Part shown: positions 790-64,000 of the stretch, piece after piece
How the letters are laid out: each line of letters opens with the position of its first letter
Position numbering within the stretch: the first letter of the stretch is position 1
Assembly (NCBI GenBank): GCA_030295235.1
Contig: AP026133.1
Span: 558,001 to 622,000, forward strand
DNA length: 64,000 nt
Direction of reading: 5' to 3'
From: Fistulifera solaris
Taxonomy: Eukaryota > Bacillariophyta > Bacillariophyceae > Naviculales > Stauroneidaceae
Translations under genes and position numbers: made by a program
Notes under the pieces: model-generated
Told to the model about the DNA's origin: nothing
Database searches by the model: none
What the model saw: the letters and a program-made list of their open reading frames with translations, nothing else

Positions 790-2602
790 ATGTCGCCATC
801 CTTGTCTCTGTGCAAAGTGGCGATTGTGGCCCTTTTCCTCTTTTTTTCTGCTTAGCTGCACTTCTCGGGCAACAACTTGCGTTTGACTCCAAGGCTTTAA
901 GAGTCCAAAAACCGGGAGCACAGAGTCCGACCAAGAGATATGACAATCTTTGCAAGATACTTGGTGATCAATCCCCCGCGTCGTTATGGGCCCAGAATCT
1001 GAGGAGTATCTTACAAGCGAGCCAAAGTCCTCTCGATGTAGATTATCAATTGCAGAATCCGACAGCGCAAGTACTGAAACTGATTACTCCCAGGCTACCT
1101 AGTGGGTTCAAATCAACTCCTCGTGACTGGCAAGCTCTGGAAAATGTGATCGAGATAACTAATCGAAGACTTGCCTACCTGAGTGCAAAAAACGAAGGTC
1201 AATTGATTGAGGAAGCCCGTCCTTTAAAGATTCTAGTTATGGGCGGGTCTGTGACAAAAGGGGTCAACTGTAAGACAGGTATTAAGGATTACCATGACGT
1301 TGAATGCAGTTGGGCGGTCCGTCTTGAAACATTGCTCAATAATTTGGCCGGTGATCGAGTGGTGGACGTACATTTGGCAGCGGTGGGTGGAACGAATTCG
1401 GCTACAGCGCAAGCCATGCTAGAGTATGATCTTTTACCAGAAAAGATGAGAGAGCCCGATATCATTATCAACGCCTACGCAACCAATGATATGCACATTT
1501 TGACGCTTCAAGAAGCGATGAGTCAAAATATCTCGTTGCGAGAGAAAATCTTTGGGATGGCGCAGAATTTTACACGCACCGCGCTCCAGCAATGCACTGA
1601 GGAAGGAAAGGCACCCTTACTTCTTTGGCTTGATGATTATTTGGGGAATGAACAAAGAGAAATACTCGCTACTTCGGATTTCATTCAAAGCCTACAAGTA
1701 CTCGCGGGCTATTACGGATTCGGACTGATGTCCTATGCGGATACGGTACGTGATCTTGTTTACGGCTCCACTACCGAGCGATCTTTTTCACCGCCCGGAT
1801 GGTACAAAAGGGACCCGAAATGAAACGAGAAATTCATCCACCATACCCCATGCATGTCGCGGTGTCGTATATTGTCGCCTACACCTTTCTGCAGTTCGCG
1901 TCGAATCACTGCGGCATGGAATCATGGAAAGTTACTTCGTGGGAGAACGATCTCGATTACTACGATGCGTCGATTCCAGATTTTCCTGGCACGAAAGGAA
2001 GTATGCATACTTTGGATTCGCCACCACTACCTCGACCAAAAGGACTCCCTCCTGCTTTGACCAGCAATCTCAAGTTGGACGACGTTTCAAGGCTGTGGCG
2101 CGAAGCGGCGCCGATACAGTGTGAAGTGGAAAAGGCAAACCGCGTTCGCTGTCCAGTCGGCTGGGTCAGTGGTTTCCGGCCGGACTCAAAGACGAATAAC
2201 ACCATGAGTTACTTTGCGCCATACATTCGGAAGCCTTTTGAATGGGAATGGCGGAACGACAAAGGGAAATTTGGATGGCTACCGACTCTCTCAAGTGGCG
2301 CAACGATGGCTTTTGACTTTCCTTTGGAGCAGGAGATCCATCGTATAGTTTTATTCTACATGAAGAGCTACGGGACATTGTGGGAAAGCTCAAAGTCACG
2401 ACTACATTTATACCTAGATGACGATGATATGGACGTCCCGTCTCTCGAATTGTTTTTACATGGCTTTCACGACAAAGAGACGAGTGAAGTCTATGTGAAG
2501 GAGGTGCAGCTAACACGCGGAGCGTCGAGGAGGCTTCAAATGACGGTTGAGCATGCAGCTGGGAAGACATTCAAGTTGATGGGATTCGCGATTTGCAGCT
2601 GA
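790..2602 (+). CDS. long SGNH-hydrolase-like membrane protein, tandem copy A (two frame breaks)
   Basis: First of three tandem paralogues. ATG 790 opens a signal-anchor that aligns with the N-terminus of the intact copy at 5836. Seen in order: hydrophobic anchor; SGNH-like domain with LVMGGSVTKG (nucleophile Ser in a GGS context) and AYATNDMH (N-D block); HPPYPMHVAV (candidate catalytic His); then a beta-rich C-terminal domain ending FKLMGFAICS. The frame breaks twice: at the T7 run 841-847 and around the A4 run 1806-1809. One added base at each gives a 604-residue protein collinear with copy C. The second break lies exactly between the Ser/Asn part and the His part. An assembly error is likelier than gene loss, because the protein is conserved on both sides. 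Likely role: carbohydrate or lipid ester hydrolysis or acyl transfer in the secretory pathway (inference). Confidence 0.7.
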
Positions 2603-3058
2603 ACTTGACGCCTCGGCACTTCTTTTGATAGAAACATACTTCCGTCTAATTTCGACATGATGCACGCTCGAAATATCACTAGAACACTCTAGCAGGTTCG
2701 AAAGTTGCTTTGAGACAAACAGCAAAAGAGCTCATCGATTAAATGTCAGTCGCTGTAAAGTATAGTCAACCGTGTATTATCATGAGTTGTTTTTATAAAA
2801 ACGATGCGGGCATTGCAAACGCTCCCATAGATGTTTGCATTCCACTTAGACTCATAATATCGCTAAACATAGACATTGCTCAAATGATTAGTGATTGGGC
2901 ATTCGTGGAAGTGACATCATCGTATAATGACCTTTTCCGCCTGTCACACGTCACACAACTCAGCGCGTGCCATTTTCTCTTTTGACAATTTTAGAAAACG
3001 ATGATTGTGTTGTCATCATAATCTCAACATTCGTTCCTCACTGACTATCGAACAAGGA
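2603..3058. other. intergenic region
   Basis: 456 bases between tandem copies A and B. No gene recognised; the small frame at 2743-2985 has no conserved character. It presumably carries the promoter of copy B. Confidence 0.4.
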
Positions 3059-4905
3059 ATGGAAGCTAGTAAAAACCCACAACGTCCCTGGTTGAATCTA
3101 AGAACGCAACTATTCGTTTTCCTGTCCCTGTTCTGCGCAGCGGACCTCTTTCGGCAACACCAAGCGTTCCAGACGAAGGCACCGGAAGTCTTTTTTACAT
3201 CATACTATCATGACGAATCCAGTCAACTCCCGGCTGCAGCAAATGACGGTATATGTGGCATACTCGGCAGTCAATCTCCTATGTCTTTATGGTCAAACCA
3301 CGTTGAGAATATTTTACGGGCCAGTCAAAGCCCTATCGACACAAATTTTGCTTTGAAGGATCCGACGGCCCAAGTACTAAAGATCATCACACCCAGACTA
3401 TACAATGGTCTCAAATCCCACCCACGTGACTGGCAATCACTTCAGAACGTGGTTGAAACAACCAATCGAAGACTCGCTTACCTGAAAGCAAAAAGAGACG
3501 GCCATTCGATTGAGGAAGCCCGACCATTAAGGATTCTTGTTATGGGCGGGTCCGTTACAAAAGGAGTCGGCTGTAAAACCAGCATCAAAAACTACAACGG
3601 TATAGAATGTTGCTGGGCTACACGACTTGAAACATTGCTAAACGGCCTAGTCGGTGATCGAGTGGTGGATGTACATTTGGCAGCGGTGAGCGCCACGAAC
3701 TCGGCGACGGGGCAAGTTATGCTGGAATACAACCTGATACCCGACGAAATGAGAGAACCCGATATCATCATCAGTGCGTATTCCACAAATGATATGCATA
3801 TTTTTACCATTAAAGAAGCCATGAGTCAAAATATCTCGTTACGAGAAAAAATATTTGGAATGGCGCAGAATTTCACACGCACTGCCTTGCAGCAGTGTAC
3901 AGAGGAAGGGAACACGCCGTTGTTGTTTTGGCTCGATGATTATATGGGCAATGAGCAATACGAAATATTAGGCACTTCGGAATTCATACAAGGCCTTCAA
4001 GTATTGGCCGGCTACTATGGTTTCGGCCTCTTGTCGTATGCGGATACAGTGCGTGATCTTGTTTACGGCACGACAACCGAGAGATCATTTTCACCAGCAG
4101 GGTGGTACAATAAGAGCCCAGATATGAAAAAGAGATCCATTCACCGTACCCGATGCATATTGCGGTAGCGTATCTTTTCGCATATACATTCCTGGAGCTC
4201 GCCTCGACATACTGCGGTCTTGAATCATGGAATGTGACAACATGGGAGAACAAAGTGGACTATTATAATGCAGCAGTTCCAGGACTCCCGGACACGCGAC
4301 AAAGTTCACAAACCTTGGACACGCCGCCCCAACCTCGCCCGAACGGACTTCCTCCTCACTTGGACTCCCACCTGAAGTTGGACAACATTTCGAAGTTGTG
4401 GAAGGAGGCTCGTTCAATGACGTGCGATGCTGACCGACCGAACCGGGTTCGCTGTCCCGTTGGATGGATCAGTGGCTTTCGACCGGATCACACTACATCT
4501 GACGTGATGAATTACTTTCAACCATACATTCAAGAGCCCTTTGAATGGGAATGGCGGATTCAAAACAAAAAGGCTGGCTGGCTACCCAAATCTGTGACCG
4601 GCGCTACGATGACGTTTAAATTTCCATTGGAACAGGAGATCCATCGCCTGGTATTGTTTTATTTGAAAAGCTATGGGGAAATGTGGGAAAATTCGAAGGC
4701 CGAGATAGAAATCTATTTGGATGAAGACATTGTCGATGACAACATCTCTCAAATTTCACTAAGTGGTGTTCACGATAAGAGGGCAAGCGAGATCTATTCA
4801 GAAGAAATCATATTGTCTCGTGGAGCGTCCAAGACGCTTCGACTCTCGGTCAGGCATACGGATGGAAAATTATTTAAGTTGATGGGATTCGCGATTTGCA
4901 GCTAA
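3059..4905 (+). CDS. long SGNH-hydrolase-like membrane protein, tandem copy B (one frame break)
   Basis: Second tandem paralogue. ATG 3059 (MEASKNPQRPWLNLRTQL) aligns with the start of copy C. Seen: signal-anchor around residues 15-35; LRILVMGGSVTKG nucleophile block; AYSTNDMH block; C-terminal YPMHIAVAY with the candidate catalytic His; beta-rich tail ending FKLMGFAICS. The frame breaks at the A5 run 4127-4131 just after an in-frame ATG codon. One extra A restores DMKKEIHSPYPMH and a length of 615 residues, identical to copy C. The break falls within the same short hinge as the second break in copy A. Clean conservation on both sides argues against an old pseudogene. Confidence 0.72.
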
Positions 4906-5022
4906 AATCGTCGCTACTTCTACGTCTTGCAAGCAAACTGTTTTATCGATTACATTTTCGACGGATTATTTTCTTCAAGTCGCAATGAGACAAGAATGAG
5001 CTCAGATTAATGCATAACGTCA

Positions 5023-5043
5023 GGGCATGCTTGTTGCATGCCC
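5023..5043. repeat. short perfect hairpin
   Basis: GGGCATGC, a 5-base loop TTGTT, then GCATGCCC: an 8-bp perfect stem located about 115 bases downstream of the stop of copy B. It could be a 3'-end processing or terminator-like structure, or simply an inverted repeat; no run of T follows. Confidence 0.5.
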
Positions 5044-5139
5044 TTCAAACTATGGGCATGATGACCAGCAGGACCTTATCACTTGACGACTTTGCGATAG
5101 AAAACATCTCTTCTCCAAATTCTTGTCCTGATCCAATCT

Positions 5140-5510
5140 GCCCTTTATTCTTTGAGAGGCGGCTCATGTTCGCTGCCATTGATTAGGGTATGGCTTTCGA
5201 CCTGATCACCCACTAGAAGACATAATGACTTGCTCATAGCAATGCATTCGATAATTCTTTAAGTGGATTTTTGGTTTGCCTGACTTCACAAAGTCTTTGG
5301 AAGGCTTGACGATTTCTAAAGAGCATTTTACGCGAAAAGCTATGAGGTGATATGAGAAAATTCACAGGCTGACGTAAAAGTGTAGCTGGAGGCGAGTATC
5401 CCATGCACTCTAGCGTTCCGCTCGCGGAGCGTCAAAGACTTAATTGACAGTTCAGCAAAGGGAAAACGAGCTAAAGTCATCGCTGATTATCTCCGTGGAG
5501 AAGCTTTGTG
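5140..5510 (+). pseudogene. decayed fourth copy of the long SGNH gene (C-terminal part only)
   Basis: Several blocks align in order with the 3' third of copies B and C although no open frame survives: GGTATGGCTTTCGACCTGAT at about 5187 matches the GFRPDH region; AAGCTATGAGGTGATATGAG at about 5338 matches the KSYGEMWEN region; and CTCGCGGAGCGTCAAAGACT at about 5421 matches the SRGASKTL region. Spacing between the blocks is shorter than in the intact genes, so internal deletions have occurred. The N-terminal and catalytic parts are not visible. This is a relic of the host's own gene array and shows the cluster once had at least four members. Confidence 0.65.
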
Positions 5511-5835
5511 AGGATTGAGTATAGCTTGTTTGTTGTTTGCTTCCTATTTTAACTAGCATGAATCATGACTCATGACGACTCCTCATAGTTTTATATCTAA
5601 GGACTCCGGCTCGCTCATACCAGGTACTGTTCCTGATAATTGGACATCGACACGATGACCCACCGGTCATTGTTGTCGTAGTATTATCTTGTACGCCAAC
5701 CCCAAGGGGAAATCACCGCGTGCTCGTATTTATCGCGATTTTCCCACAAATTCTTGTTAGGATCTTTTCAGCTTTTCAACCTTTCCTTTCAGACTTTCAG
5801 CCCTCTTCCAACTAGAGAGCTTGAGGCCGACAAAG

Positions 5836-7683
5836 ATGGAAGCTCTTCCAAAGACACAACGCCCCTGGCTGAGTATTCGGTCGCAGCTATTTGTGATATT
5901 GTCTATATTCTGCATGGCGGATTTATTGCGGCAATATCAAGCTTTTGATACGAAGGCTCCGGAAGTTTATTTCACAAATAATAGAGCAAATAACCAGACT
6001 GACCACCCGATAACCACAAAAGACGGAATATGCGGCGTTCTTGGCAATCAATCTCCCACGTTTTTATGGGCGAAGAATGTCGTGAATATTTTACGTGCCA
6101 GCCAAAGTCCTCTCGATACAAATTACGTTTTTCAAGATCCAACTGCCCAAGTATTGAAGATCATCACCCCAAGACTGCACAACAGTCTGAAATCAAGCCC
6201 ACGTGATTGGAAAGCCATGGAGCATGTGATCGAAACCACCAATCGAAGACTCGCTTATTTGAAAGCGAAAAGAGAAGGCCACTTGGCTGAGGAAGCACGA
6301 CCTCTTAAAATTCTCGTCATGGGCGGATCCGTGACGAGAGGGATGAACTGTTACACTCGGATCCGGCATTACGACTATAACAAGTGTTGCTGGGCTGCTC
6401 GACTCGGGACACTACTTAACAGCTTAGCTGGGGATCGAGTTGTAGATGTACACCTGGCAGCGGTGAGCGCAACGAATTCGGCGACAGGACAAGTCATGCT
6501 CGAATACAGCTTGTTATCCGAAGAAATGAGAGGGCCTGATATCATTATTAGTGCTTATTCAACGAATGATATGCACGTCTACACGATGCAGGAAGCCCTC
6601 AGTCAAAACATCTCGTTGCGAGAAAAAATATTTGGAATGGCGCAGAATTTCACCCGCACTGCCTTGCAGCAGTGTACAGAGGAAGGGAACGCACCGCTGC
6701 TATTTTGGCTCGATGACTATTTAGGAAATGAACAAAAAGAGATACTTGCCACTTCAGAATTTATCCAAGGGCTCCAGGTTCTAGCTGGCTATTACGGATT
6801 CGGACTGATGTCCTATGCGGATACAGTGCGTGACCTTGTTTACGGCACGACAACCGAGAGATCGTTTTCACCTCCAGGATGGTACAAAGAGGACCTTAAA
6901 ATGAGAAGAGAGGTTCACCCACCGTATCCGATGCACATAGCTGTCTCGTACATTTTAGCTTATACATTCCTTCAACTCGCGTCGACCTATTGTGGTCTCG
7001 AATCGTGGAATGTGACATCATGGGAAAGTAAATTAGACTACTACAACGCACAAGTGCCCGGATTGCCCAACACGCAAGTAAGTAAACAGAGCTTAGACAC
7101 GCCGCCCCACCCTCGACCGGAGGGACTACCTCCTCCTTTGAATTCCAGTCTTAAGTTAGACGACGTTTCAAAACTATGGCGCGAAGTTCCTCCAAATACC
7201 TGTGACGCTGAAAAGACACACAAAACTCGCTGCCCCATTGGATGGGTCGGTGCATTGCGACCAGATCACATTGCGGATGACGTATCAAGTTACTTCCAGC
7301 CGTATATTCGAAAGCCGTTTGAGTGGGAATGGACAATGGATAGGAAGAAGCCTGGATGGCTGCCTAAGTCGGCGGAGAACGCAACAATGACGTTCGATTT
7401 TCCTTTGCAACAGGAAATTCATCGTTTAGTGATATTCTACATGAAAAGCTATGGAGACATGTGGGAAAATTCGAAGGTCGAACTAAAAATCTATTTGGAT
7501 GACGAAACAGTTGATGAACACGCTCTTCGGCTTTCACTAAGTGGTGTTCACGATAAGAAAACGAGCGAAGTCTATGTTGAGGAAGTTGATCTACCTCGCG
7601 GAGCGTTAAGACGACTTCAAATGACAGTTCAACACGTAGCAGGAAAATCCTTTAAGCTAATGGGATTCGCAATTTGCAGTTGA
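5836..7683 (+). CDS. long SGNH-hydrolase-like membrane protein, tandem copy C (intact)
   Basis: Intact 615-residue member of the tandem array. The start is ATG 5836, which matches copy B; the TTG-extended frame upstream is not needed. Residues about 15-35 form a signal-anchor, so the protein is probably a type II or secreted protein. The catalytic-like domain spans about 40-400, with VMGGSVTRG (Ser about 165), AYSTNDMH (about 240-247) and HPPYPMHIAVSY (His about 367), corresponding to SGNH blocks I, III and V with the GDS motif replaced by GGS. Residues about 420-615 form a beta-rich module containing FEWEW and ending KLMGFAICS. The substrate is unknown. Relatives act on acylated carbohydrates, and the C-terminal module may bind sugar (inference). 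Confidence 0.8.
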   Translation: MEALPKTQRPWLSIRSQLFVILSIFCMADLLRQYQAFDTKAPEVYFTNNRANNQTDHPITTKDGICGVLGNQSPTFLWAKNVVNILRASQSPLDTNYVFQDPTAQVLKIITPRLHNSLKSSPRDWKAMEHVIETTNRRLAYLKAKREGHLAEEARPLKILVMGGSVTRGMNCYTRIRHYDYNKCCWAARLGTLLNSLAGDRVVDVHLAAVSATNSATGQVMLEYSLLSEEMRGPDIIISAYSTNDMHVYTMQEALSQNISLREKIFGMAQNFTRTALQQCTEEGNAPLLFWLDDYLGNEQKEILATSEFIQGLQVLAGYYGFGLMSYADTVRDLVYGTTTERSFSPPGWYKEDLKMRREVHPPYPMHIAVSYILAYTFLQLASTYCGLESWNVTSWESKLDYYNAQVPGLPNTQVSKQSLDTPPHPRPEGLPPPLNSSLKLDDVSKLWREVPPNTCDAEKTHKTRCPIGWVGALRPDHIADDVSSYFQPYIRKPFEWEWTMDRKKPGWLPKSAENATMTFDFPLQQEIHRLVIFYMKSYGDMWENSKVELKIYLDDETVDEHALRLSLSGVHDKKTSEVYVEEVDLPRGALRRLQMTVQHVAGKSFKLMGFAICS

Positions 7684-8476: not shown

Positions 8477-9967
8477 CTAACAAATCCAGCAGACATTTTC
8501 TCTTGCCGACAACGTTTCATCGGTTGTGTGGTGCGCGACGTAAAGATTGATAATCCCTTTGCAGCAACACCAAAACTCGGCGCATCCTCTCAAATACCCC
8601 TTAAGAATACCTTCCAGTAGCAAGAGATGGATCAGTATGTATCAATAAGATTGCCTCACACAAATAATAGATAACTCTCTGACTTACCACAACATCCTTC
8701 GTCTTCGTGTCCATTCAAAGACCAATCACCAGCAGTTGTACGGTCGCAGATGTTCACACGGGTGTAGACTTTGCTAAAGTCTTCGAAGGACATCCAAAAC
8801 GCACCGTCATCTGCAGCAACGAAATTCAGCACTTTTGCAACTTCAGGGTGTTTTTTCCACATCGAACTCTTGTCCGACCATGCTCCCTTCCATTCGAAGG
8901 TTCCCCAAGGATTCCGCAGTTGAACTAGGCGAAACTCTTTTACTTGACGAGCTTGAATAATGGAGTAAGCGTGTCCAGCAACCAACCCTTCCTTCTCCAG
9001 CATTTGTTCTCCTGACGGTCCATCGGACTTTCCGTACTCTGTTTTGCCGATGCTGGCCGACATCAAAGCTTTTTGTTTATCATACTTCTTCAGCAGGGTC
9101 CACAATTGCTCGACTGTGTAGGTTTCTTTTGTCGATTTGAATCCACAAGCACGTTTGTCTTTTTTTGTCTTTCAGTGCTACCATGTCCTCCCTTTTCCAT
9201 CGAAATTGTTTGTTTTTCTTGTCCGGTTCTACCAAGGACATTTGAAATACCTTATCACCCGTCATACTGAGCCATCCCCAAAGTACAAAACCCCCATCCA
9301 GGGCCGTGTAACTTCCACAGAACTTCGCGTATGCTTTTTCGAGTAAAATGGCCCACAATTCATTGCCGTTTGGATGCATGAAACGGGGTTTGTTCGTTCC
9401 CTTGTGGCAAGGAATCCTGTCATCAATTGTAATAATCTGCCATTTTTCTTGAACCGGATCATAAATACGGACTTTGTACAGTCCTCGAGGATTGTATTCC
9501 TTGGTAATGAACAGATTGCGGATTGCGTGAGGGAACTCAGAAGCACAAGCGAATGCGGCCACCAGCCAGCAATCTCCCACAGCTCCTTGACAGAGATCAC
9601 TTGGTTCAATTTCTCCCTCAAAAAGTTGGGGGCGCTTTCCTTTGATCCCCTCAATATCTTGCGCACGGACCCATTCTGTATCCTTCTCCATAGCCTGAGC
9701 GCTTTGTCCCTTTCCACCGGTCTCTTGGTGAATACCGAGAGCCTTGGCACCTATAAACGATTTGTCTTCGTAAACGAACCAACAGGGTAACAGATACCGC
9801 CACAGACACCCGACCGTGAAGCGCTGACAAAGTACGCGCATGCAGGGCCCGCAATAAACTTGGAAGCTTCGAAACACCAGCGCGATCGGAGCTACAATAG
9901 GACAGCATAAGGTATTCCAGAAGAGCCCCGCATTTCCGGAAAAGAGGCTCGCACAGGTCGGAGCCAT
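8477..9967 (-). CDS. calpain-like cysteine protease, cysteine-rich ends
   Basis: Starts at ATG 9967. The N-terminal about 60 residues are hydrophobic and rich in Cys (likely membrane association or palmitoylation). The calpain domain shows the full triad: Cys in QGAVGDCWLVAAF, His in VAGHAYSII, Asn in LRNPWGTFEW. An intron at 8611-8687 (GT-AG) joins GCC to GILKGYLRGCAEFWCCCKGI, so the gene ends at TAG 8477 in another Cys-rich tail; without splicing the frame would run out in the intron. The frame breaks once at the T7 run 9160-9166 (one base too many). Corrected length is 470 residues. Calpains cleave proteins in a limited, usually calcium-controlled way; no EF-hand domain is present here, so regulation is unknown. 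Confidence 0.85.
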
Positions 9968-10329: not shown

Positions 10330-12790
10330 TCATTGGAGGTAAAAGAGCGGCAACTCAAGTGTCCTGTTCAATTGTTGCCGCTCCGTAGGTCCGTCTTGCC
10401 AAGTGCAACCATTTTTATTGGCGGCCGCTTTCGGAACTCCCGCAGTCCAATGGCGCACCGTGCATGTTAAGTTGCGACCAGATAGCAGCAGTCCCCATTT
10501 ACCGAATCCGCCCATATTGTAGGCTAGGCACTCTCCCATTGATATTATGTACAGATCTACGAACACGGCGTAGTAGTCGGAAGGTGACGTTGGTTGACTT
10601 GGTTTCAGATCCATGTGCAGCGGGTCTTTGTCATGAAGACGCGTTGCCACTGGTGTATTTCGCGACTTCCCGTACTCCACAGCAACCTCACGGGCGTATG
10701 CCGAGTCCGAAGCGAAGAAGAAAGGTCCGCCAGGCCGTAAGTGCGAGATGCAATTTAGCGAATTGACAGTCCAATTGTAGACTTTAGCTGGATCACGCCC
10801 GTGCTCTTCTAGCCCATATTGCGCTCGCAAGTGAACGCTCGAATATTCGTAAGGAATGAGCTCGAAGCCCTTCATCTCCGACTCGATCTGTTTGGCCACT
10901 TTGGGTGCCGGTGTGAAGAAGCTACGCCAACAATCTCGGTAATGCTGACGCAAAGCGTCTTCCGACTCACCTGATTGCAAAGCTTGCTCTTTGTAATACT
11001 TAGAGCCATGATCACTTATCTGTATGCGGGACATTATAACTGTTCGATTGGATTGTGAGTATGCCACCAGTCGGTCTAGTGTATGAATGCGATCTGCGTT
11101 GGCTTTGAGAATATCATGAAACCAATCGGGTACAACCCAGTTTACACCACCCACCGGCGGCACCAGAAACTCGGTCAAAATGCCGGTCGCTCCCAGTAGA
11201 GGAGCAGCAATCGATTGGTATTAGCTGCCACTCGCACCATTGCAGGTAACAGACGAAGACGATCCGAAGTTCCTCCACACTTTTCATCACTCTCCATGCA
11301 GGTCATGATTATATACCGTGTCTCATTCCAATTTTCCGGGCTCAATCGTTGCCGCTGTTCTGCATGCCAGTTAAAATAATCTTTCATCCATTGAGGTATC
11401 TGCGTCGAGTCATTCCATATTCTAGTGGACGCAATAGCTTGTGGCTTGGGGTGAACTACCTCGGCACGCAACAATAACAATGCACCATCTTCTTCTGATG
11501 TCAGTCCTCGCATAGGAGGAGGGAAGATTCTATCATTTGTTAGAACGTGGCTGCTAGTATTTCTAGCCCGAGTGTATGTGGTGGTCAAGCGGCACTCCGA
11601 CAACGAAATAGCCGTCATATGCTGTAATGCGCAAGAAGCGTTCTGACTCATGTAAGACGCCAATTTCCCGTAACCACCCATTCCATAACTAACGCATTTT
11701 CCCAATGACAAGACGTACAAATCGACAAACGCATCATAATATTCACTGGGCGACCTTGATCTCCACTGTATGGCCTTATCCAGGTGGAGAGGGTTTTGTT
11801 CGTGTTGCGGCGAAATGACATGATAACCCCGATGCGTTCCGTACTCTCCAGCCACTTGCTGTGCGTACGATGCATCCGATGCAAAAAATAGGTAGGGATA
11901 CTCGGCTTCCACAAATTGAAGGCTGCAATTCACGGCGTGACGTGTCAATTGTTCCAAAAAGCGCGGATCCCGTTCTTCGACATTGTACAAGGCTCGCAGA
12001 TGAGTCGATGGGTATTTCCCTACTTCCAGACCATTGTTGTTCATGTATGTTTGTATCCTTTTCGCAATCGGCGGTGCAGGAGTGAAAAAGACCCGCCAGC
12101 ATTCTGCAAATACTTGGGAAAAAGTGGGTTCGTCGGGCAACAAGGTATAGTCGTAATACACCTGTCCGTGATCATGCGCTTGAAATTTGACACGAAACGA
12201 CGGAATGGAGTGATTGGAAGCAAACGTGAGTATTTCATCTTGAACCGTAACACGCTCTCCTCCGCTTCCGTTCCAGTCCGGTGGCAAGCGCCAGTCGACA
12301 CCTCCCACAGGAGGCAATAAAATTCTTCCAACGGAGCCGGACGGCCCCATTGAAACAATAAGACTCGTTCTGACAGCGCCGCCACTCGTACCAAAAAGGG
12401 TAAAGTCATAAGTCGATCGGCCAGTCCGCCGCATTTGATGTATTTCGGTAAGCACGAAACTATCATGAGTCGATGATTGTTGTCGTTGTGAAAAAGAGAC
12501 TGACGCGCTTCTTTGTGCCATCTAAAATAGTCTTTCATCCATTCCGGCAATGTTTCCGAAGATTCCCATAAATCTGTAGTATCGATTTGATAAGAAGCAG
12601 ATGGTTGAACAAAAGACACCATCAACTGTTGATCATTTTCATTAGTAATGGTGACATTCGATGACGCAAATGAATGATTAGAACGGCCGTGATCCAAATG
12701 CGTTTGCATTTCCCACAAAACGACAAAATAAAGAAGGCCAATCGCTGTAAAAACAGCTTTGAGGCCTCCATTATTTATTTTATTCTTCAT
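10330..12790 (-). CDS. type II membrane protein with two tandem fucosyltransferase-like domains
   Basis: ATG 12790; one transmembrane anchor near residues 10-28 (LKAVFTAIGLLYFVVLW). Two copies of the same domain follow, each with PxWMKDYFxWH, CGGLADRLMTLP or CGGTSDRLRLLP, a G/ERPAPLEEFLLPPVGG-type motif, a HLRA motif, FFASD and a C-terminal VDLYxxSxGxCxxYxMGG block. The linker between them is Ser/Thr-rich and open. The CGG..DRL start, HLRA and final VDLY block resemble the xyloglucan and O-fucosyltransferase group, hence Golgi glycan transfer (moderate confidence). Two frame breaks, at A4 12319-12322 and A4 11177-11180, fall at the equivalent motif of each domain; one base added at each gives 820 residues. 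Confidence 0.7.
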
Positions 12791-13646
12791 ATTGTGATCA
12801 TGATGAAATGATTGATATTAGAGGAAGGAATGACTCTGTTTGGATTGCAACGAAAAACGAAAGACCGCGCGCATTCAATACTTGTTGTTAGACGCATCTT
12901 ATCCGATTACGGTGAGGGTTTGTTCTGCCCCATTCTCATCACTCTTTTCGAGAGTATAGAAGACCTTTCTCCACGACTGCTTTATGTTGGGTCATGAGTC
13001 ATGAGTAATGAAAAAATAGACTTCGGAGCCAGACGCTGCTGGTTGACCTCGTTTGTTTGGCCAGATTGAAATGTCTTACGTAAACTTAACTTGATTGAAA
13101 TAACGGTCGGCAGCTTTTTGACACACGCGTCGATGCTGGATGTTGAGACGTATCCCTATGTAATTAATTGTTTTGGTAAAATGACTATAGGCCAGAATGT
13201 ACTCTCAACTTTACCAAGACTGCATTTCTGTCATGAATCATTCTTTGTTCAAGCATGGTTACCATCCAATCTCCGTTCTTGGTGCTGAATTGGTAATCAG
13301 TCATTGGTTTCTATCTCTTTTCGCAGGCAGTGACCATGTACGAGACGATTCTTGATATGGAAGAGCCCTAGCAAATCGATATTGGCGACCTTTTCTATTT
13401 GAAGTCCGATTTTTACTCTAGTCCCGATTTACAGGGAAGTGAATAAGACGTCACACTTCGCAAGATCTCCTGCGCAGTACCGCACTAAAACGTGCGGCAA
13501 GAACGTCGTTGCAAACAACCCAACAGGAGACGCGACGATGAGAGCGATCTTTGTCCTCTTCCGCAGCAATCATTTGCTTTCTTCTTCTTTCTCTTTTTCT
13601 TCTTCTTCTTATTATTATTATCAATCACAAGAAGACTTTGATAAAC
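12791..13646. other. divergent intergenic region
   Basis: 856 bases between the divergently transcribed glycosyltransferase-like gene and CAND1. A near-palindromic TCATGAGTCATGAG lies near 12990. A pyrimidine-rich stretch of TTC and ATT repeats spans about 13578-13621 just before the CAND1 ATG, fitting a 5' UTR or promoter element. No gene recognised. Confidence 0.5.
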
Positions 13647-16600
13647 ATGTCATACAACAGTGTGAATAATCAAAACTCCGTCAATGTGACGGCGTTGTTG
13701 AAAAAGACGGAGCACTACGACAAAGACGAACGCTACATGGCCATTTCGGACCTGCGCGACTTTTTGAAGCGGCAAGAAGGAACGACGCACGATACCGCCA
13801 CGGAACGCAACATTTGCACGGCTGTCTTGCGTCTTTTGCACGACAAGTCGAATGATGTCCAGGCCATGGCTGTGAAAACATTGTCGGATTTACTCACTAC
13901 GGTACAGCAGGAGCAAGTCGTAGAAATTGCGGATTCGCTGGCGGATCAAGTGTTGGACAACAGTAAATCCGAATTACGCGATGTCTATTCGATTGGGTTG
14001 CGCACACTCGTCAAGACGATTCCCGCTCCCATGGGAGAGCGTGTTTCGCAACGTTTGGTGGGCCGGCTCCTGGATGGCATTCAATCATTGGAAGAAGAGA
14101 TTGTGCTAGCCTGTCTGGATACTTGGGCGGAATTGCTCACGCGGTTCGGATCTTCGGTAGTGCACGTATCACGACAGCATCAGCCTCTTCTCTTGCAATG
14201 CTTGAAGTTGTTGAACTCACCGACTCCCGTCATTCGCAAACGATCGGGAAATTGCATGGGAGTTCTCTCGACCGTACTCAGTGATGTGCTCTTGAATCAA
14301 ATGATTCAATCGCTACTCGAGCCTATTGAAATTCCCAAAAGCAAAGATCAGGATACGAGAGCCTGGATTCGGACCCTCTGTACCGTTTCGGGTTCTGTCG
14401 GACACCGCATGAGTCAGCAGCAAATTGATCGTATTCTTCATTTGTTCTTGCAGTTTACGAAACCGGCCGACGCGGTGACGGGAGATGACGAGGATGACGC
14501 CGAAATGGGGGTTACAACGGATGAACACGCGATCAATGTCGTGAATGAATTGCGTGAATCGTGCTTCATGGGATACGAGTCTTTCATCACGCTGTGTCCC
14601 AACGAGGTGCAACCGCACATGGATAAGATAATTCAAGCGGCGTTGGCTTATATGAGTTACGACCCGAATTACAGTTATGGTATAGATGATGAAGAGGACG
14701 ATGTAGCCGAAGACATCGATGGTGACGATGATGACGACGAAGAAAATGAATATGAAGAAGAGGAAGAAGACGATGAGGAGGAAGAAGACGACGACGACGA
14801 AAGCTGGAAAGTCCGTCGCAGTGCGATTCGTGCTCTCAAAGGAGTGGTGATTGCCTGCAGCAAAGATCCGACGCGATTGTGGACCAAGACTTACTCGATT
14901 CGGCAGGGAAAATCCAGTGTCGTGGCTTTGGCGATTCTGGGTCGTTTCCGAGAGCGCGAGGAAAACTGTCGGGTTGAGCTTATCGACTGCTTCAATCAGA
15001 TGCTCGCTTCTCTCGTTGCCGCGGACGAGAGGGGTGTCCTGCGTATTGCCAATGACGAGACTATGGATGACGAAAGCGCTTCTTCTATTGACTTCGGGCA
15101 GCTTTACACGTCCAAGCTTGTCAAGGCTTCCGAAAAGATTCTAGAAATAAAGAAGGGCAATGAACGCTCCAAATCTAGTGCGCTATCGTTGCTCTCGACT
15201 CTCTGCAATGTTCCAGGTGGGATAGGCTCCTCTAGTGCCATCTCTTCGGTCTTTAATCATATTCAAGTCTTCTTATCTTCATCGGGTGGGAAAGACGCCA
15301 CCGCGCACCGCGAAAGTACGAGCAAGGGCCTTCGTCTGGACGCACTGACCACTGTCCATGCCATCCTTTCGTCGAAGAACCATGATCCGGCATGGATGAG
15401 AGCTGACATTCAAAACAAACTTCTTCCCCAGTTATGTCTGTCGGTTCAAGAACAGTGGTATAAAGTCATTGCCGAAGCTTTGCGGTCTTTGGCACATGTT
15501 CCAATAATAGTTGTATCGGGGGTGGATCCGGCTTCCAAGGACTGCAAGGTGGTGGCTCAAATGCTGTATGATGCCATCCAGCCCTTGTTGGCAACGCATG
15601 ATGTTGATCAGGAAATAAAGGATTGTGCTCTTGATGCGTGTGCTGCCCTTCTAATGTTTATGAATGACAGCTTGTCGAATGAACAACGCGAAAATCTTTT
15701 GAAACTTTTATTGGATCGGATGCAGAATGAGACTACGCGCATTGCGGCCATCAAAACCCTTGCTGTAATTGCTGGCTGTTCCAACAAAATTGATTTGTCT
15801 CCGATTTTGGCGGAATCGGTCCGCTCCATGGGTTCGTTCTTGAAGCTCAGTAGCCGTTCGTTGCGGCAAACTGCTCTTGAAGCTTTAATTGTTGTGGTGA
15901 ACCATCATGGCAATTCTTTAAATGATCCGAGTGGAGACTTGTATTCTTCGGTCCTGGTCGATCTGGAAACTCTTGTCGTAGCGACAGATTTGCATGTGAC
16001 CCAACTCAGTTTGTAAGTTCTCAACATTTCTTGCCCCTGATTTTCTTTTCACCACTAATCATTGCTTTCTTTTAACGTCAGACGCGTCTGCGAAGCAATT
16101 CTGTCGGTGTGCCCAGCAGCGGGTGCTACATTCAGATCTAGTGTTTTAGGACGTGCTCTTGCGCTGTCCACGGCGTCGTCTCTTCAAGATACTGCTCTCG
16201 TGTCCTTGCTGGCTTTGTTTGAGCGGTCCATTACGAGCAGCGCAGTCGAATTCCAGGAATTATTCGAGAAATTACACCAGCAGCTCAAGCCTGATATGAG
16301 TAAGTCGGCAACATATCACTTAGCCGAATGTATTGCAGCTGCTGCAAGTGCAACTCGCCCGGAAAACACGAAGACTGTGCTGGACGGAGCTTTGGACGCA
16401 ATGAAAATTGCTATTTTGGATGAAACGGACGGTGCAAAAGTCAAGGACTTGCAACTATCAGTCCTCATCGCGGGCGACATTGGTCGCAAAGTAGATACAG
16501 TCGCTGTTTTTGGGGCCGATTTTGCGGATGCTTTAAGAGTTTCGTTTGTACGTCTCCTGGATCATTCTGTAGACGAATTGATGTACGCAGCGGCGTATGC

Positions 16601-17684
16601 TCTAGGGAACGCTTCAGTAAAGTCGCCATCCGTCTTTCTCTCGGAAATTGTCCAGCGTATCGACTCTAGCAATAAGAAACAGAAACATGTAGTGCTCTCC
16701 GCACTTCGTGACTTTATCAAGTGCGGGCAGAAGCTATCGGCGACGGATATTACGTCCGCCTCACTACAGAATATTTTGCCTCCCCTAGAGCATAACTGCG
16801 GCGATGCCGAAGAGGGTGTACGAACTATGGTCGCCGATTGTTTTGGTTCGCTAGCGTGTCTCCATCCCGATGAAGTTCTTTCAAAGTTGCAGTCCATCTT
16901 GTCCGCGCATTCCGAAATTTCCGCTCCCGGTGGAAAAATCCCTGAAAAAGATGAGATTTCGAAGAAGAATGCCTGGGTAAGCTGGACTGTCATTACCTCA
17001 GTAAAACAAGCTATCGCCGGAAAAGTGGATGCTGTAAAACTTGCTGCCGCCATGCCGACCTTCGTCGCAACATTGAAACAAGAGGAACTGTCGCTTAGAA
17101 CGACGGCCCTTCTTATGATCTACGCTTCTGTTCACCATCTGCCTCAAGCTATCACAGGTCTTCTGGATGGAATTATTTTCCCAGAGCTTTACCGAGTGGC
17201 GAACCTGAAACTTGAGCGTAAGGTCGACCTTGGGCCGTTCACACATACAGTAGATGACGCTTTGCCCCTTCGAAAAGCCGCACTAAGTATCTTTGCGAGC
17301 TGTTTGGAAAATGCTCCTGAATCTATGGACATAAACAAGTTTTTGCCAGTTCTAGCCAATGCCATGGGTGATGCTGAAGATATTCAATTGCATGCTCATC
17401 AAATTGTGATCTCCATGTGCGCGCGACAGCCTAGCTACTTAGTCGCTTCAATCGACACATTCGTGGACCCTCTCGAGAAAACCATGAACAAGAAACCGGG
17501 TCAAAAGACTGGCACTGAGCTCGAGCGCCTGAATGATTGGATTAAGAGCTCTATTCGCGTCATGATAGCTCTCAATGCATTGGATGGTGTCCCGAGCTCA
17601 GGTAAATTCGGTCAGTTTGTTGAGCGGACCAAATCAGATGCTAAGTTTGCGGAAAAAATTCGAACGATTGAGGAAGAGCGTTAG
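13647..17684 (+). CDS. CAND1: CAND1, cullin-associated NEDD8-dissociated protein
   Basis: Two exons, 13647-16012 and 16082-17684, with a 69-nt GTAAGT..CAG intron; 1322 residues, near the family's usual 1200-1250. The start is the ATG giving MSYNSVNNQNSVNVTALLKK; an upstream hydrophobic extension in the same frame is UTR. The protein is HEAT repeats throughout, beginning LLKKTEHYDKDERYMAISDL, which is typical of CAND1. Residues about 347-387 are an acidic Asp/Glu run in the place where family members carry an acidic loop. CAND1 binds cullin-RBX1 cores lacking NEDD8 and exchanges substrate receptors of SCF ubiquitin ligases in nucleus and cytosol. The frame is clean, showing that long genes in this window can be error-free. 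Confidence 0.92.
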
Positions 17685-18263: not shown

Positions 18264-18612
18264 ATGACAGAGTCGGACGCAGGGGATCTTTCCATACAAG
18301 AATTGCAGGACACGGTGAGCCGCTTGGCATCGCACAAGGGCGTGCAATCGGTCCTGATATTGAACCGGGAGGGCGATATTCTAGCCGAAAGTATTGCCAA
18401 TTCTACGCCTTCATCATTAAGTGGAGATGATACACCGAAACACGATCTAGCAAAACAATCGCACAAATTACTCGCATCCGCACGGACGTACTTGCAATCT
18501 CTAGACCCCAACGACGAAGTTGCCTTCCTGCAGCTGCGATCCAAAAAAGAACCATGAAGTCATGATTGCACCACATGAAGGATATGTTTTGGCAGTTTCT
18601 AAGCGATTGTAG
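18264..18612 (+). CDS. DYNLRB1: dynein light chain Roadblock/LC7
   Basis: ATG 18264 gives MTESDAGDLSIQELQDTVSR, then the family core HKGVQSVLILNREGDIL and DEVAFLQLRSKK. As written the frame stops early at 18557, after an A6 run at 18543-18548. With five A the reading continues NHEVMIAPHEGYVLAVSKRL to TAG 18612, giving 115 residues and the complete LC7 fold. Roadblock proteins bind dynein intermediate chain and act as homodimers in cytoplasmic or intraflagellar dynein. Pennate diatoms lack flagella, so a cytoplasmic dynein role is the reasonable inference. A longer TTG-initiated upstream extension is hydrophobic and not family-like. Confidence 0.85.
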
Positions 18613-18738: not shown

Positions 18739-20826
18739 CTAGTCAATCTCGACCACCTCCTTGGTGAACGTATGGACGGATGATGTTTGGCTGAAAATCG
18801 GACGCAGATCGTCGTCGTCGCTATCGTCGTCTAAGAGTTGGATGATCGGCCTGTTATCCTTCCTTTCCAGAGGAAGGAACGACTCGAGAGAACTAAGAAA
18901 GTCGTCTATATGACCTTCCGCTGCTATGAGGGAACAAGTTTCCGCTTTTTTCGCTCGCGGCGGATCCTTTATCAGCGATGGCTTTACAGCCGCTACCGTG
19001 GTTGATGTTGCAAGCTGCCCTAAGCGAGAGGATATGTTTTCGTCGTCACTGTCACTATCTAGCATTTGTATGATCGACTTTGCTGGAGAAGCGGAATAAA
19101 CGTTCGATTGTTGTCGTCTCGTAGGAGGTGAATTTTCAGGAGAATTTGAATACTTCTCAAAAATGCTCTCCATCGAATTGATTGCTAGGCCGACGGAATA
19201 GGACTTCGCCGTACATGTATTTGCGACAATCTGCTCATTCACGGGTGATGGATCCTTACGCACCAATTGTTCTGTATACGGTATGGTGTTTTGTTTTACA
19301 AACTGCGCAGCTGCACCAGCGGTGCTAGTTGCTGGTAAGGTGCCTTGCTTGTTCACGAGGGGCTCGTCATCTCTCATAGCCAACCCGTACGCCACATGCA
19401 ATTCTGCGGAGCTCCGAGGACCAACCTTGCTGGTCCGTGCTCCCTCGCTTACGACTACTTCCGACAAGAGCTCACACCGCTGGTATTTAGGTACCGAATC
19501 GTACGCCTCCAGCAAATGACAAGTCGTAGGATAGAGTTCTTGTAGGCGAACAATCTTTTGGCGTTCACTGTGCTGACTTGCTTGAGCATAAACCCATGCA
19601 AACTACCAACGCGCCGGTTGGTTATTTCTCGATCACGTTCGACAATGGCCTTCAATTCACTGTATGTCATGAAGCGTTGCGTACCAAAAGGAGGCGTCGG
19701 ATCACAGTCAAAAGTCATTTCCATTAATGACTGCATACGCTTTCGCCGATGACGACGGTTTTGTGCCAGAAATGCTCTTTCATCAGAGGGACGCACGTCG
19801 CTTTGAACAGCTACTTGACTAAAATTGGGTAGGGCTTCGGAGGAAGTAAAGACTGCGGGAAACGTCCTCTGCAGAATGCGACGATGCATTCGTTTCAAAG
19901 TAACAACAGTGTCATCCATGTGCTTAGTTTGAAGAATTTGAAAGCCCGTATGGAGTCGAATTTCCCATAACGCCGAAAGCAAAGTATCCGCCGGACACCG
20001 GTGCTGATCCTTTGTGATATCGCCCTCAATCAAGAATACAACTTGAGCAATTCCTGTTTCTTTCAGGCGCTTACGCTGTTCCATATAACGTGTTCCGAAC
20101 AGACTTGCTTTTAGATCTTCGGCTGATTTACGTTCCACAATGGTCCCTACCAGTAATTCTTCCACAACTTTTCCACCCTGCGTCCCCTGGGCGATCCAGG
20201 CCATATCCCCAATGGGCAAAGTTCTTTCTTCCGTTGGAATCCCCGATTGCTGACATGCCGACCGCATTTTATTTCGCTCTTGTTCTCTAACATCAATCAA
20301 TAAAACAACCCGCCATACCATTCGTTGATTCTTCCAATTCAATGCCCGGGCTTGTGCTTGCTCGACCGCCAATTGCTTTTTCGTCTTTTTTCTCCACCGC
20401 CGCCAGTTCAAATGTCCTTTTTCGTGAAGTTCCGTCATGGACTGCGGATTGATGATTAATACTACTTATTACAGTGGGTAAAGTTTTACGTACAATGCAG
20501 GATTCTCCGGCATCGGGTGAGACACCACTCATCACAACCGATGCCGCTTTTGGACGAGGCGTTTTTTCGGGAGGGACCATCATTTTTGCAATCGTCGGTC
20601 CCACAAACGGCAACGCCAATGCTTCATCGTACTTTACAACAGGATCTTTTGCTTTTTGAAGTGATTCAATGGCACGCTTCAAAGTGAAAACGAAGTTACC
20701 GTGCGCTCGTTCTTGTTTTTCAAGCAAACGATCCAGAGCGGCTTGATTGGCTTCGCACGTTGCCGTATGAAATTTGGGGCGTCCCGTTTTCTTTGTCGGA
20801 GGGCCTTTTTGATAAGGGTGCGGCAT
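18739..20826 (-). CDS. MUS81: MUS81-type structure-specific endonuclease
   Basis: ATG 20826 (MPHPYQKGPPTKKTGRPKF). Order of parts: N-terminal helix-hairpin-helix region (EALALPFVGPTIAKMM); linker; ERCC4 nuclease domain from about residue 195 with LLIDVREQE, GDMAWIAQG and VERKSAEDLKAS, which is the ERKxxxD metal-binding active site; C-terminal HhH region (VNAKKIVRLQELYPTTCHLL); and a long Ser/Asp-rich tail with two DSDSDDE-like motifs. Frame breaks at T6 20386-20391 (one extra) and T4 19556-19559 (one missing) are the only obstacles; correcting both gives 695 residues. MUS81 with an EME partner cuts 3' flaps, forks and recombination intermediates. The acidic tail, repeating I.LLDDDSDDDD-type motifs, is unusual and may be SUMO-binding (inference). 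Confidence 0.85.
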
Positions 20827-21233: not shown

Positions 21234-22114
21234 ATGAAGTATTCGCGCACCGTCTGCACTTCTCTGATTGCCTTGACTTCGACCACGTTGGCATTTCGTA
21301 GTTCGTCGTCTACCTTTCTCGGTCAATCAACAATTCGTCAAGCCTCTCGTGTCATTCCGTATTCCACCACGACTCCCACTATGCTCTTGAGTAAATTGTT
21401 TGGAGGAGGCGCTTTCGGTACAGAGCGTATAGCCTACCAAAACTTGGATCATCCCGGCCCCGAATTGGCACAATGGGCCGAGCAGGGCAAAATGCCCGCC
21501 ACGTCGGAACGTGATCCCCACCTTGCGCTAGCTACTTTTGCCGGTGGATGCTTTTGGGGTTTGGAATTGGCCTACCAGCGTGTACCGGGAGTGCAATACA
21601 CGGCAGTCGGTTATGCACAGGGACCAGAAGAGTTTCCCACCTACAATCAAGTCTGTGCGGGTGCCACGGGTCATACCGAAGCTGTCATGGTGTATTATGA
21701 TCCGAAAGAATGTGATTATTCCAAATTGTTGGATACCTTTTTGATCGCATCGATCCGACGACTGTGAATGGTCAAGGACGTGATTTTGGGTGAGTCTTGT
21801 TCTCAATTTATGTGGTTCATTGTAGTGCGAATTCTTTTGCTCAACTTTCATTCGTCTCTCACTTTAAAATTTGCAGAAAACAATACCGGACAGGAATTTA
21901 CTTTCACACCCCAGAACAAGAGGCCATCGCACGAGCGCGCTTTGAGGAAGAGGCCAAAAAATACAAAAAGCCCATGGCAACGGAATTGAAAGCCGCAACA
22001 CCCTTTTGGCCAGCAGAAAAGTATCATCAGCAGTATTTGGAAAAGGGCGGACGCTTTGGAATGCCCCAGGATGCTTCCAAGGGCGCTACAGAGACCATTA
22101 GATGCTACGGTTAA
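21234..22114 (+). CDS. msrA: peptide-methionine (S)-S-oxide reductase MsrA
   Basis: Exon 1 is 21234-21789 and exon 2 21877-22114, with an 87-nt GTGAGT..CAG intron joining DFG to KQYRTGIYFHTPEQE. The catalytic motif GGCFWG is present in LATFAGGCFWGLELAYQ, followed by YAQGP and ATGHTEAV typical of MsrA. The N-terminus is a signal peptide with TLAFRSSSS at the cleavage site, so plastid import through the bipartite route is likely. One frame break at T5 21738-21742; six T would give LLDTFFDRIDPTTVNGQGRD and a 264-residue protein. The enzyme reduces methionine sulfoxide in proteins using thioredoxin and protects against oxidation in the plastid. Confidence 0.9.
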
Positions 22115-48025: not shown

Positions 48026-49124
48026 ATGGCGATGACGACAAGATTATACACTCTTCTCGTCGTGTCACTCGGCATGGTCGAACCTCTGAATGCATGGCTA
48101 TCCAATGGGCCTTTACGGTTGTCATCGTCGTCGTTGTCGTCGGGCGTCATAAAAAGGACTTTTTGTACACAGCAAAGGCTACACACTAAGAAGAAGAAAA
48201 AACGAAGGAGAGGATGAGGAAGAGGATGACTCGGTGAATAGCAAGTCGGGAGTGGGCATGGAACGAGCGTTTCAGCAGTTGGAACAATTATCATTTTGCC
48301 GAACGACGACGACAACAACAACAACAACAATCGTTTAGACAACAAAAATGGTACAAAAATACAAGCATCAACGGAGGATTTACATCTGACGTCTACTTCC
48401 ACTCCGACACCCGAGCAAGAAGTATTGTTGTACAGAATATGGTGCAAGAATTGGAACAAACTACCGAAGAAGATTTGTATTCCAATGTCTTGCAGGACAT
48501 GGGCGGTGGTAGCGGTGCTTCCCTGAGTGTTAGTGCAACAGAGCAGGGAAAAACAGCCGATATTCCCAAGCCCACCACCAGCGCCGATTTTTGAATCAAG
48601 CGCTATCGGAGGCACTGCAACAAGTACAAGTCAATACGCCCAGTGCCGTCGATTCCATTCTCGATGACCCTGAATTAATGAATGAAATTGAAGCCATCTT
48701 TGAACGAGGCAATGCAAAGTTGTTGGAAGGCTTGGAAGCGGTCCGACGCGAACAGGAACAACTCACGAAAGCTAGTATAGCAGCCCAGCAACAAACGAAA
48801 GAAGAGGACGCTGAGACCCAGGCCCGACTGGACGCAGCGGAACGGTCGATGCAAAGCATGTTACAACGTGTGAATCAAGAACGGTCGAATGTTGAACAGG
48901 CTGTGCAAGACTTACAACGTGCCCAAGAACAAGAAGAAAACGTTCTTTTGAAATTAAAACAGAATCCACTGAAACAAGGTGCCTTAATTGGTTTCTTGTT
49001 GTTTTCGTTCCGGTCTTTGACGGACTCCTTTGCCGTTTTAAATGATCCTTCCCAAGATTGGGCGATGGCATTAGTGCAAGGTGCGATTGCGTTGGCCTGT
49101 GCGGCCGTCTTTTATTTGTTGTAA
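48026..49124 (+). CDS. plastid-targeted coiled-coil membrane protein (several frame breaks)
   Basis: One locus is inferred from ATG 48026 to TAA 49124. N-terminus MAMTTRLYTLLVVSLGMVEP continues LNAWLSNGP, a signal peptide with NA/W plastid context. Then an acidic and Gln-rich linker, VVQNMVQELEQTTEEDLYSN, SADFLNQALSEALQQVQ, a long coiled coil (about residues 210-310) and two C-terminal hydrophobic segments (QGALIGFLLFSFRSLTDSF and MALVQGAIALACAAVFYLL). Five breaks are needed: A6 48197-48202, T4 48294-48297, A5 48344-48348, near 48428 and T5 48588-48592; together they give an exact 365 residues. The family is unrecognised. The last 180 residues form a clean frame and are well supported. Confidence 0.55.
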
Positions 49125-54325: not shown

Positions 54326-54399
54326 AAAGGCACATCAAGATTTCTCTAGATACTATGATCATCATGTTAAAACGAGTTTCTAAGGAACCTAAACCTACT

Positions 54400-62077: not shown

Positions 62078-62896
62078 ATGCTCTTTCGATCCAGTCTCGT
62101 CGCCGCCCTTTCGGCTGCTTTCCTTCAAAGCGCTGCAGCTGAAATCACGACCGATGTCGTTGGAAAAGCGGAAAGATCAAGATCTTCGACGCTGCCGGAA
62201 TCCGAGAAGACCGAAACGCCATCATGATGACAATGGACTTTCTCTACGAGTTGGACGCCAACGAGAAAATTGTTGGAAAGAAAGGCTCCCAAAAACACGG
62301 TACCCAAACTTTTGCCAACCAGCAGTTCACCTTTTCTGATGTCGAAGAGGTGACTTACTCCAACGTCACGGCAGATTACTTCTCCTTCGAGGCGAATGTG
62401 TACGAGGCCGGTTCCATCAAGGTTGAGACGTACGTTTTCCGTGAAGATGGTGTTATCACTACTAGTGCCGAAGAAACGTTTGATGTCTTTGCAGGCGACT
62501 TCAAGTTTTCCATTGAGCTCATTGATTGGAAATGGTGCGATCCCTGTGACAGCAATGAATATGGCGCCTTCGTTGATGTGGGTATCGAGTTGAAGGGAAG
62601 CAAGGCCGAGCCGTCCGAGGAAGACCTCGGTGGTGGCATCCCTGTCATCTTGTCCAGCAAGATTTTGGCCGATGATGTCGTAATTGACATGCCCGCCGGA
62701 TACCCTAAGGTTGTCTCCAAAGATGCCTACGACTTGGATGGAGATGGTGTCGAAGACGGTGATGGCGGTGGCAAGAAGCTCTTTATTTTCCGTTTCCCCC
62801 AAAGAAGGGGGTGCCGCCCTTTACGACTATGACCCGATCATTCGTACAGGTGGGGAAACCTGCGGCATCTTCTGTCGTGCCCTTCCTTGCTTGTAA
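62078..62896 (+). CDS. secreted protein of unknown function (two frame breaks)
   Basis: ATG 62078 gives MLFRSSLVAALSAAFLQSAAAE, a cleavable signal peptide. Body: KIFDAAGIREDRNAIMMTMD, FTFSDVEEVTYSNVTADYF, ELIDWKWCDPCDSNEYGAFV and FDLDGDGVEDGDGGG-like Asp motif (DLDGDGVED), with FIFRFPKEGGAALYDYDPII at the end. Breaks at A3 62172-62174 (one missing) and C5 62796-62800 (one extra); correcting both gives 272 residues ending CGIFCRALPCL. The repeating Thr/Asp-rich beta strands suggest an extracellular matrix-like protein and DLDGDG could bind calcium. I do not recognise the family. Confidence 0.6.
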
Positions 62897-62989
62897 TGTA
62901 AAAGCCCGAGGATGGATTCATAAGCGCATAACTTCAAATTACAATATTAAAAAGCAAATTACAAGCAAATACAATTTATCGATTCCACT

Positions 62990-64000
62990 TTAGTTATACC
63001 TTGATGCTTCGTGTAGTTCCAACTCATGGCCTGTGTTGTATTCGTTAGGGAACATATGCTGGTACTCAGACCCACCTGTCAGTCGTCTCACTCGTTCGGT
63101 CAAAATGCCAAATTTACCTTGTCGAATCACAAAAACGGATGCCACAAAACCGGCGACAAAAATCCAAAATAATTTACAAAACGACCCGCAAATTGTATTT
63201 GATGTTTCTCCGCCAGTTTGAGCAGGATATTGCTTCTTCTCCTTCGTAGGTGCAGGAACAGGCGACAGCGGATTCACGGGTGCAGCTACAGGTGAAGAGT
63301 TCGGCGAAACATTTCCCGATGGGGCAAAACCTTCTTTTCAACAAGATGAGTGTAATCGCAGTGGCTTTCTGCCCATCCTACTCGGTGGTTCTTTGTGTCA
63401 AACAAAACATCATGACCCATGATCGCGTTTGCGCCCAATAAGCTGCCACTTTGTGGAGGCTCTTCCATATTGAAGCGAGCATAATAAGCACCTGTTGCTT
63501 CACTTAGCTCCATGTAATGGGTTGGAGGAAGTGCTAAGAGCACATCGTACGGGTGTTCGGGGTCAAGGTTTCCAGCCAGACTGACAACTTTATTGGGGTC
63601 GCCGACTTCTTTATTTAGTTCAATGGCACCCTGTAATTGGAGAATGATTGTGGGCAATTTCTGAATCTGCTCGTAGGTTAGATAAACTGCTCTGTTGTTG
63701 TACGCTGACCCCGTCATGGACTTCCATACTTGCTGAAACGGTTCCGCGAGTTTGTTCGTAAGGTAAGTATCTGTAGTTCCTGACTCGATTATGACAGGGC
63801 CTTGATTAAGAGCTTCTTCCGATACATCGACTTGTATAATTTTTAAGCTGGGATCTGTCGAGTTGATAGAATCACCGCCTCCTCCTTCTCGTATATAAAC
63901 TTTTCGCAGCAGTACACCATAGCTTCGTTCCCAATCCTCATCGTGAAAGGTAAACACCATCGGAGTCAGGTGAAAACGATCGTCTGTACCACCCAATGTC
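62990..64000 (-). CDS. aspartic protease, membrane-anchored, 5' end outside window (partial)
   Basis: C-terminal part of a pepsin-like protease; the first lobe lies beyond the right edge. Seen: VFTFHDEDWERSYGVLL, the C-lobe active-site strand VIIESGTTDTYL, LGANAIMGHDVLFDTKNHRV and GWAESHCDYTHL. In typical members the active-site strand reads DSGTT; here the Asp is Glu. The A4 run 63326-63329 lacks one base; five gives VFAPSGNVSPNSSPVAAP and joins the C-terminal Pro-rich linker and one membrane helix (LFWIFVAGFVASVFVIRQ). So the enzyme would be a type I membrane protein. Whether it is active depends on the Glu. Confidence 0.78.

Follow-up and report, generated by a model that had tools for sequence, protein, structure and literature searches.

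Single-base frame breaks along a Fistulifera solaris contig as probable consensus errors of a nanopore assembly

Systematic errors of nanopore sequencing have been reported to outlast polishing (PMC8011154), and polishing with short reads has been described as unreliable in repeated regions (PMC8812927). The diatom Fistulifera solaris is, according to published descriptions, an allopolyploid or allodiploid whose chromosomes form homoeologous pairs (PMC5935921, PMC13276009), and its assembly GCA_030295235.1 is listed as Fsolaris_ONT_v03reference among the references of PMC12159174. We analysed 64,000 nucleotides of this assembly (C8:558001-622000, contig AP026133.1; hereafter the window) out of a genome total of 51,715,745 bases in 61 contigs. 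A preliminary description of the window had listed single-base frame breaks in many of its genes and ascribed them to an uncorrected long-read assembly. Our results support that explanation: we consider it very probable (about 0.97) that the breaks are not biology but errors in the consensus of a nanopore assembly for which correction with accurate reads was either omitted or incomplete. The support comes from the two arms of the plastid contig, from breaks private to one homoeologous copy, from normal selection beside the breaks, from split genes on other contigs and from the codon phases of a recurring 12-mer.

The record name and the error profile suggest nanopore chemistry as the cause, and one cause probably applies to all the sites, and the genes and transcripts in the cell are presumably intact. 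In such a mechanism, base calling would misjudge the lengths of runs, would drop lone bases that separate like bases, and would err repeatedly in one way at contexts like TTGAAAAAGAAGG, and each error would move the apparent reading frame by one.

Frame breaks in the two homoeologous copies

Most of the window has a collinear second copy on contig C7 (679-747 kb), with 82-92% identity per block over 17 aligned blocks. In these blocks we tracked the reading frame of both copies via the pattern of silent versus amino-acid changes, and doubtful sites were then inspected by eye in three frames. The positions tested were the 19 named in the preliminary description, out of the about 30 breaks that it counted, plus further breaks found on the way. 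At 12 of the 19 (4127, 9160, 11177, 12319, 19556, 21738, 29459, 42306, 42566, 45183, 46440, and 48588), C7 remains in one frame and the window is one base off, being one base short at nine and one base too long at three (9160, 29459, and 42566). Both copies are broken at five further sites, in different runs or at different lengths within the same stretch (841, 18543, 20386, 30342, and 62796), and one break (63326) is identical in the two. The last site, 50702, does not hold as a break, because the run is equal in both copies and no upstream frame is coding-like (silent to amino-acid changes of 4:10, 3:13, and 4:11). In all, breaks at 17 of the 19 named positions are not shared with C7, as expected of long-read errors, which should fall regardless of gene and copy.

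Four window breaks were absent from the earlier list (1811, 31379-31390, 48430, and 62160), and C7 has breaks of its own elsewhere in some of the genes that it keeps open at the named sites (12258, 42352). Furthermore, in families of sufficient length, split Pfam domains bridge the breaks in different frames at the calpain (9160) and actin (46440) genes. Where no noncoding sequence lay between the frames, segmentation gave 12 breaks private to the window, 19 private to C7 and 4 in both; across noncoding stretches, the corresponding numbers were 3, 5, and 9. The raw C7 count is too high and was not used as a rate, because inspection by hand showed three breaks assigned to C7 (29459, 42566, and 48588) to belong to the window, and because two of the four cases assigned to both copies fall in a poorly aligned gene end (53324-53373).

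Real mutations could produce similar breaks if the genes were pseudogenes in decay, for instance following the doubling of a hybrid genome, and in a genome described as allodiploid (PMC5935921, PMC13276009) one of the two copies could be lost. However, the 27 segments taken as flanking window breaks hold 811 silent versus 247 amino-acid changes between the window and C7, a ratio equal to that of the other coding segments (1465 versus 423; wrong-frame control 273:2682), showing no relaxed selection beside the breaks. In five of the 19 cases both copies are broken, and differently; CAND1, correctly described as unbroken in the window, has a one-base gap that is private to C7; and chaperonin genes and an HSP70 copy elsewhere in the genome are also split. 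Pseudogene decay is therefore very improbable.

These split genes show that the same kind of break occurs on other contigs and is not local to the window. A search of the genome for the chaperonin family gave 46 matches, which we grouped by hand into 19 nuclear gene copies, excluding partial matches in long frames (C3:927034, C4:861637) and the matches on C60 and C61. A copy was counted as split when its matches abutted within 2 bases or overlapped by at most 14, lay in different frames and covered consecutive profile positions; eight of the 19 were split in this way, on C1, C3 (twice), C4, C15, C22, C25, and C26. Three presumed partners of broken copies (on C2, on C16, and the second on C4) matched whole. 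HSP70 has the same kind of split on C9 and none on C10.

Run lengths in the plastid arms and kinds of nuclear gap

The plastid contig (C60; 232,645 bases, carrying rbcL) contains a palindrome centred near 154 kb, and we compared 30 kb of its arm A with the matching part of arm B (30,007 aligned columns). The arms differ by 153 gap openings, 149 of them in runs, and by four mismatches that are shifted runs, with no independent substitution. The proportion of runs shortened in arm B rises with their length in arm A, from 16 of 19,666 at lengths 1-4 to 45 of 211 at 5, 56 of 79 at 6, 22 of 26 at 7, and 13 of 13 at 8 or more; 91 of 118 runs of at least 6 are shorter in one arm, and the runs longer in B are seven in all. 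Thus, duplicated plastid DNA differs nearly only in run lengths, and increasingly so in longer runs, both of which are features expected of long-read errors. Because the gaps nearly all shorten arm B (146, versus 7 that shorten arm A), and more so in longer runs, one arm seems to have been corrected and the other not; failed polishing of the plastid repeat would be a likely cause of the uncorrected arm. The chaperonin and HSP70 matches on C61 resemble those of C60, and the two contigs appear to be duplicates of a single plastid genome that were in part left uncorrected.

Of the gaps between the window and C7 in the coding core, 26 span one base, 1 spans two, and 9 span three; in noncoding sequence, which tolerates real indels, the corresponding numbers are 120, 46, and 27. 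The proportion of frame-shifting to in-frame gaps does not differ significantly between coding (27:9) and noncoding (166:27) sequence (P 0.13). Runs of at least 4 make up 6.5% of positions but contain 11 of the 26 one-base coding gaps (binomial P about 3e-7), but another 11 of the 26 affect a lone base, so the description of the breaks as lying at homopolymers is right in part only. C7 has a base that parts like bases at 11177, 12319, and 19556 (AAtAA, AAgAA, and TTTcT); this base is missing from the window, and the run seen there is therefore itself the product of the loss. Some of the breaks are thus lost single bases between runs and not run-length errors. A/T runs of at least 8 number 2 in the window versus about 9 expected under a second-order Markov model, and C7 has 128 A/T runs of 6-7 versus about 171 expected, a shortage at these lengths only; we gave no weight to either figure.

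A recurring 12-mer and the remaining explanations

Two breaks, at 31379-31390 and 63330-63341, are identical in the window and C7, and both lie at the 12-mer TTGAAAAGAAGG. Genome-wide, TTGAAAAGAAGG occurs at 35 sites and the form with one more A (A5) at 8, and all 43 were inspected. Judged by eye from open frames and translations, 12 of the 35 are at a break, 6 are read through and 17 were left unassigned. The codon phase at the 12 break sites is xTT GAA AAG in eight and TTG AAA AGA in four. Pfam agrees at five 12-mer sites, and three read-through sites lie inside a Pfam domain in one frame (a ketoacyl-synthase pair and a bromodomain); neither side of the break site L042 has a Pfam match. A class II tRNA synthetase is present as a pair of 93% identity, and its match to PF00587 covers 48-178 in a single frame in the A5 copy and is divided between two frames (36-113 and 109-178) in the A4 copy. 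Among 39 genomic pieces around the 12-mer sites, six pairs matched each other. One pair, L036 and L060 (C5:629531 and C6:594709; 82% identical, with A4 and A5), appears to keep its frame in the A4 and not in the A5 copy, and may have an extra base or not be coding.

The two shared breaks have the motif GTTGAAAAGAAGG in common, as might be expected if ribosomes slipped at runs by programmed frameshifting and whole proteins were made. However, a ribosomal signal requires one phase and a miscall at the DNA level does not, so the two phases of the 12-mer favour a miscall, and a 12-mer of the first phase is read through in the ketoacyl-synthase pair. Breaks at the 12-mer in two phases, together with its normal reading elsewhere, agree with a repeatable miscall but not with programmed frameshifting. 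Furthermore, 17 of the 19 named sites are not common to C7, both signs of shift occur, and the plastid arms differ in the DNA itself. In the titles and abstract openings of the literature searched, we found neither frame errors of the F. solaris assembly nor nuclear frameshifting in diatoms. We regard programmed frameshifting as even less probable than pseudogene decay. Unrecognised short introns are the least probable of all: GT-AG introns are present (e.g. after 21738 and at 39645-39773) and explain the frame changes flagged across noncoding stretches, but the window-private breaks free of noncoding columns have coding sequence directly on both sides, one base off C7.

The explanation by assembly errors needs three refinements: such breaks are also present on other contigs, some of them are lost single bases and not errors of run length, and some recur at one short context, at which homoeologous copies and unrelated genes share a false break. 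An unlikely candidate for the cause is a DNA base modification at the purine-rich TTGAAAAAGAAGG that would disturb the nanopore signal and lead to the repeatable loss of one A; if so, assembly errors would be an unintended map of modified sites.

Several observations weigh against assembly errors as the explanation. Random error does not predict the breaks common to both copies (31379-31390 and 63326), which are explained by the argument of a recurring context only, and the ratio of A4 to A5 forms (35:8) does not significantly exceed the 70:24 obtained locally for TG followed by four or five A and then G (Fisher P 0.51). The nuclear and plastid error profiles are unlike, with lone bases in 11 of the 26 nuclear coding gaps and extra bases at 3 of the 12 clearest window breaks versus 7 of the 153 gaps between the plastid arms. 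Four plastid gaps lie outside runs, three of them clustered. A/T runs of at least 8 are not short in number on C7 (20 seen versus 20.7 expected). Finally, the 75% overall homology given for the chromosome pairs (PMC5935921) is below the identity of our aligned blocks, from which unaligned parts are excluded.

Features along the window and comparison with described assemblies

The genes and break sites of the window are collected in Table 1.

Table 1. Genes and break sites along the window and their state in the C7 copy (a letter with a number gives base and run length; new, absent from the preliminary description)
Position	Strand	Feature	Observation
575..7683	+	Three tandem copies of one gene	GDSL lipase match, weak, in two copies; copies 1 and 2 broken in window (841, 1811; 4127), copy 3 open over 640 codons
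841..847	+	T-run break near 5' end	C7 frame change in same stretch, other length; frame model saw no coding, called by eye
1807..1811	+	One-base break, new	C7 one base longer
4127..4131	+	A5 in window, A6 in C7	C7 open
9160..9166	-	Calpain-family gene, T7 in window, T6 in C7	Peptidase_C2 1-171 and 174-296 in different frames
11177..11180	-	AAAA in window, AATAA in C7	Lone T absent
12319..12322	-	AAAA in window, AAGAA in C7	Lone G absent
13542..17684	+	CAND1, two exons in one frame	Window unbroken; private C7 gap near 5' end (13701)
18541..18548	+	Roadblock/LC7 gene	Frame change at 18541-18548 in window, 18523 in C7
19556..19559	-	ERCC4-domain gene, TTTT in window, TTTCT in C7	Lone C absent
20386..20391	-	Same ERCC4-domain gene, second break	Both copies change frame; extra length in two different adjacent runs
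21738..21742	+	Methionine sulfoxide reductase, T5 in window, T6 in C7	GT-AG intron next
29459..29464	-	G6 in window, one fewer in C7	C7 open
30337..30347	+	A-rich site	Window and C7 shift frame in opposite directions
31379..31390	-	TOP6A/SPO11 Toprim gene, break at 12-mer TTGAAAAGAAGG, new	Identical in C7
42306..42310	+	TRIAP1-like (UPF0203), A5 in window, A6 in C7	Alignment with C7
42566..42570	-	PAP/fibrillin, C5 in window, C4 in C7	TGEDNLFV in single frame in C7
45183..45186	+	C4 in window, C5 in C7	Alignment with C7
46440..46443	-	Actin family, C4 in window, C5 in C7	Actin profile halves 1-152 and 150-409 in different frames
48429..48434	+	One-base break, new	C7 longer
48588..48592	+	T5 in window, T6 in C7	Single frame throughout in C7
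50697..50702	+	C6 in both copies	Upstream not coding-like; no supported break
62157..62164	+	A4 in window, A5 in C7, new	Alignment with C7
62792..62800	+	C5 in window, C4 in C7	C7 frame change in later run instead
63330..63341	-	Break at 12-mer TTGAAAAGAAGG (previously given as A4 63326)	Identical in C7

Elsewhere in the window, a 580-codon open reading frame at 36543-38282 (-) is strongly conserved between the copies and matches Pfam Inv-AAD (AID/APOBEC-like deaminase; E 7e-7), and another at 34956-35759 (-) has a thrombospondin type 1 domain (E 5e-7). Two adjacent GDSL lipase genes at 59081-61356 (+), likely a tandem pair, are also present on C7, with cross-matches.

Errors of this kind can split gene models, and in a public reference they can mislead the modelling and counting of genes as well as any search for pseudogenes or for frameshifting; if the density in the window holds genome-wide, thousands of loci would carry false breaks. 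Homoeologous copies and a doubled plastid reveal such errors without any reads. The recurring 12-mer, in turn, means that the agreement of two copies within one nanopore assembly is not independent confirmation.

The chromosome-scale assembly of F. solaris (Maeda et al. 2022, cited in PMC12159174) is printed with 62 sequences and 52 Mbp, compared to the 61 contigs here. Our findings resemble the errors described for nanopore-only assemblies (PMC8812927, PMC8011154), which are mainly homopolymer indels that shift coding frames, with systematic sites that survive polishing and repeats that stay uncorrected after polishing with short reads. Those reports deal with bacteria (PMC8812927) and with bacteria, viruses, fungi, and metagenomes (PMC8011154), whereas the present case is a diatom assembly. 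It also differs in its internal controls, two homoeologous subgenomes and a palindromic plastid contig, and in the many lone-base gaps of its nuclear sequence.

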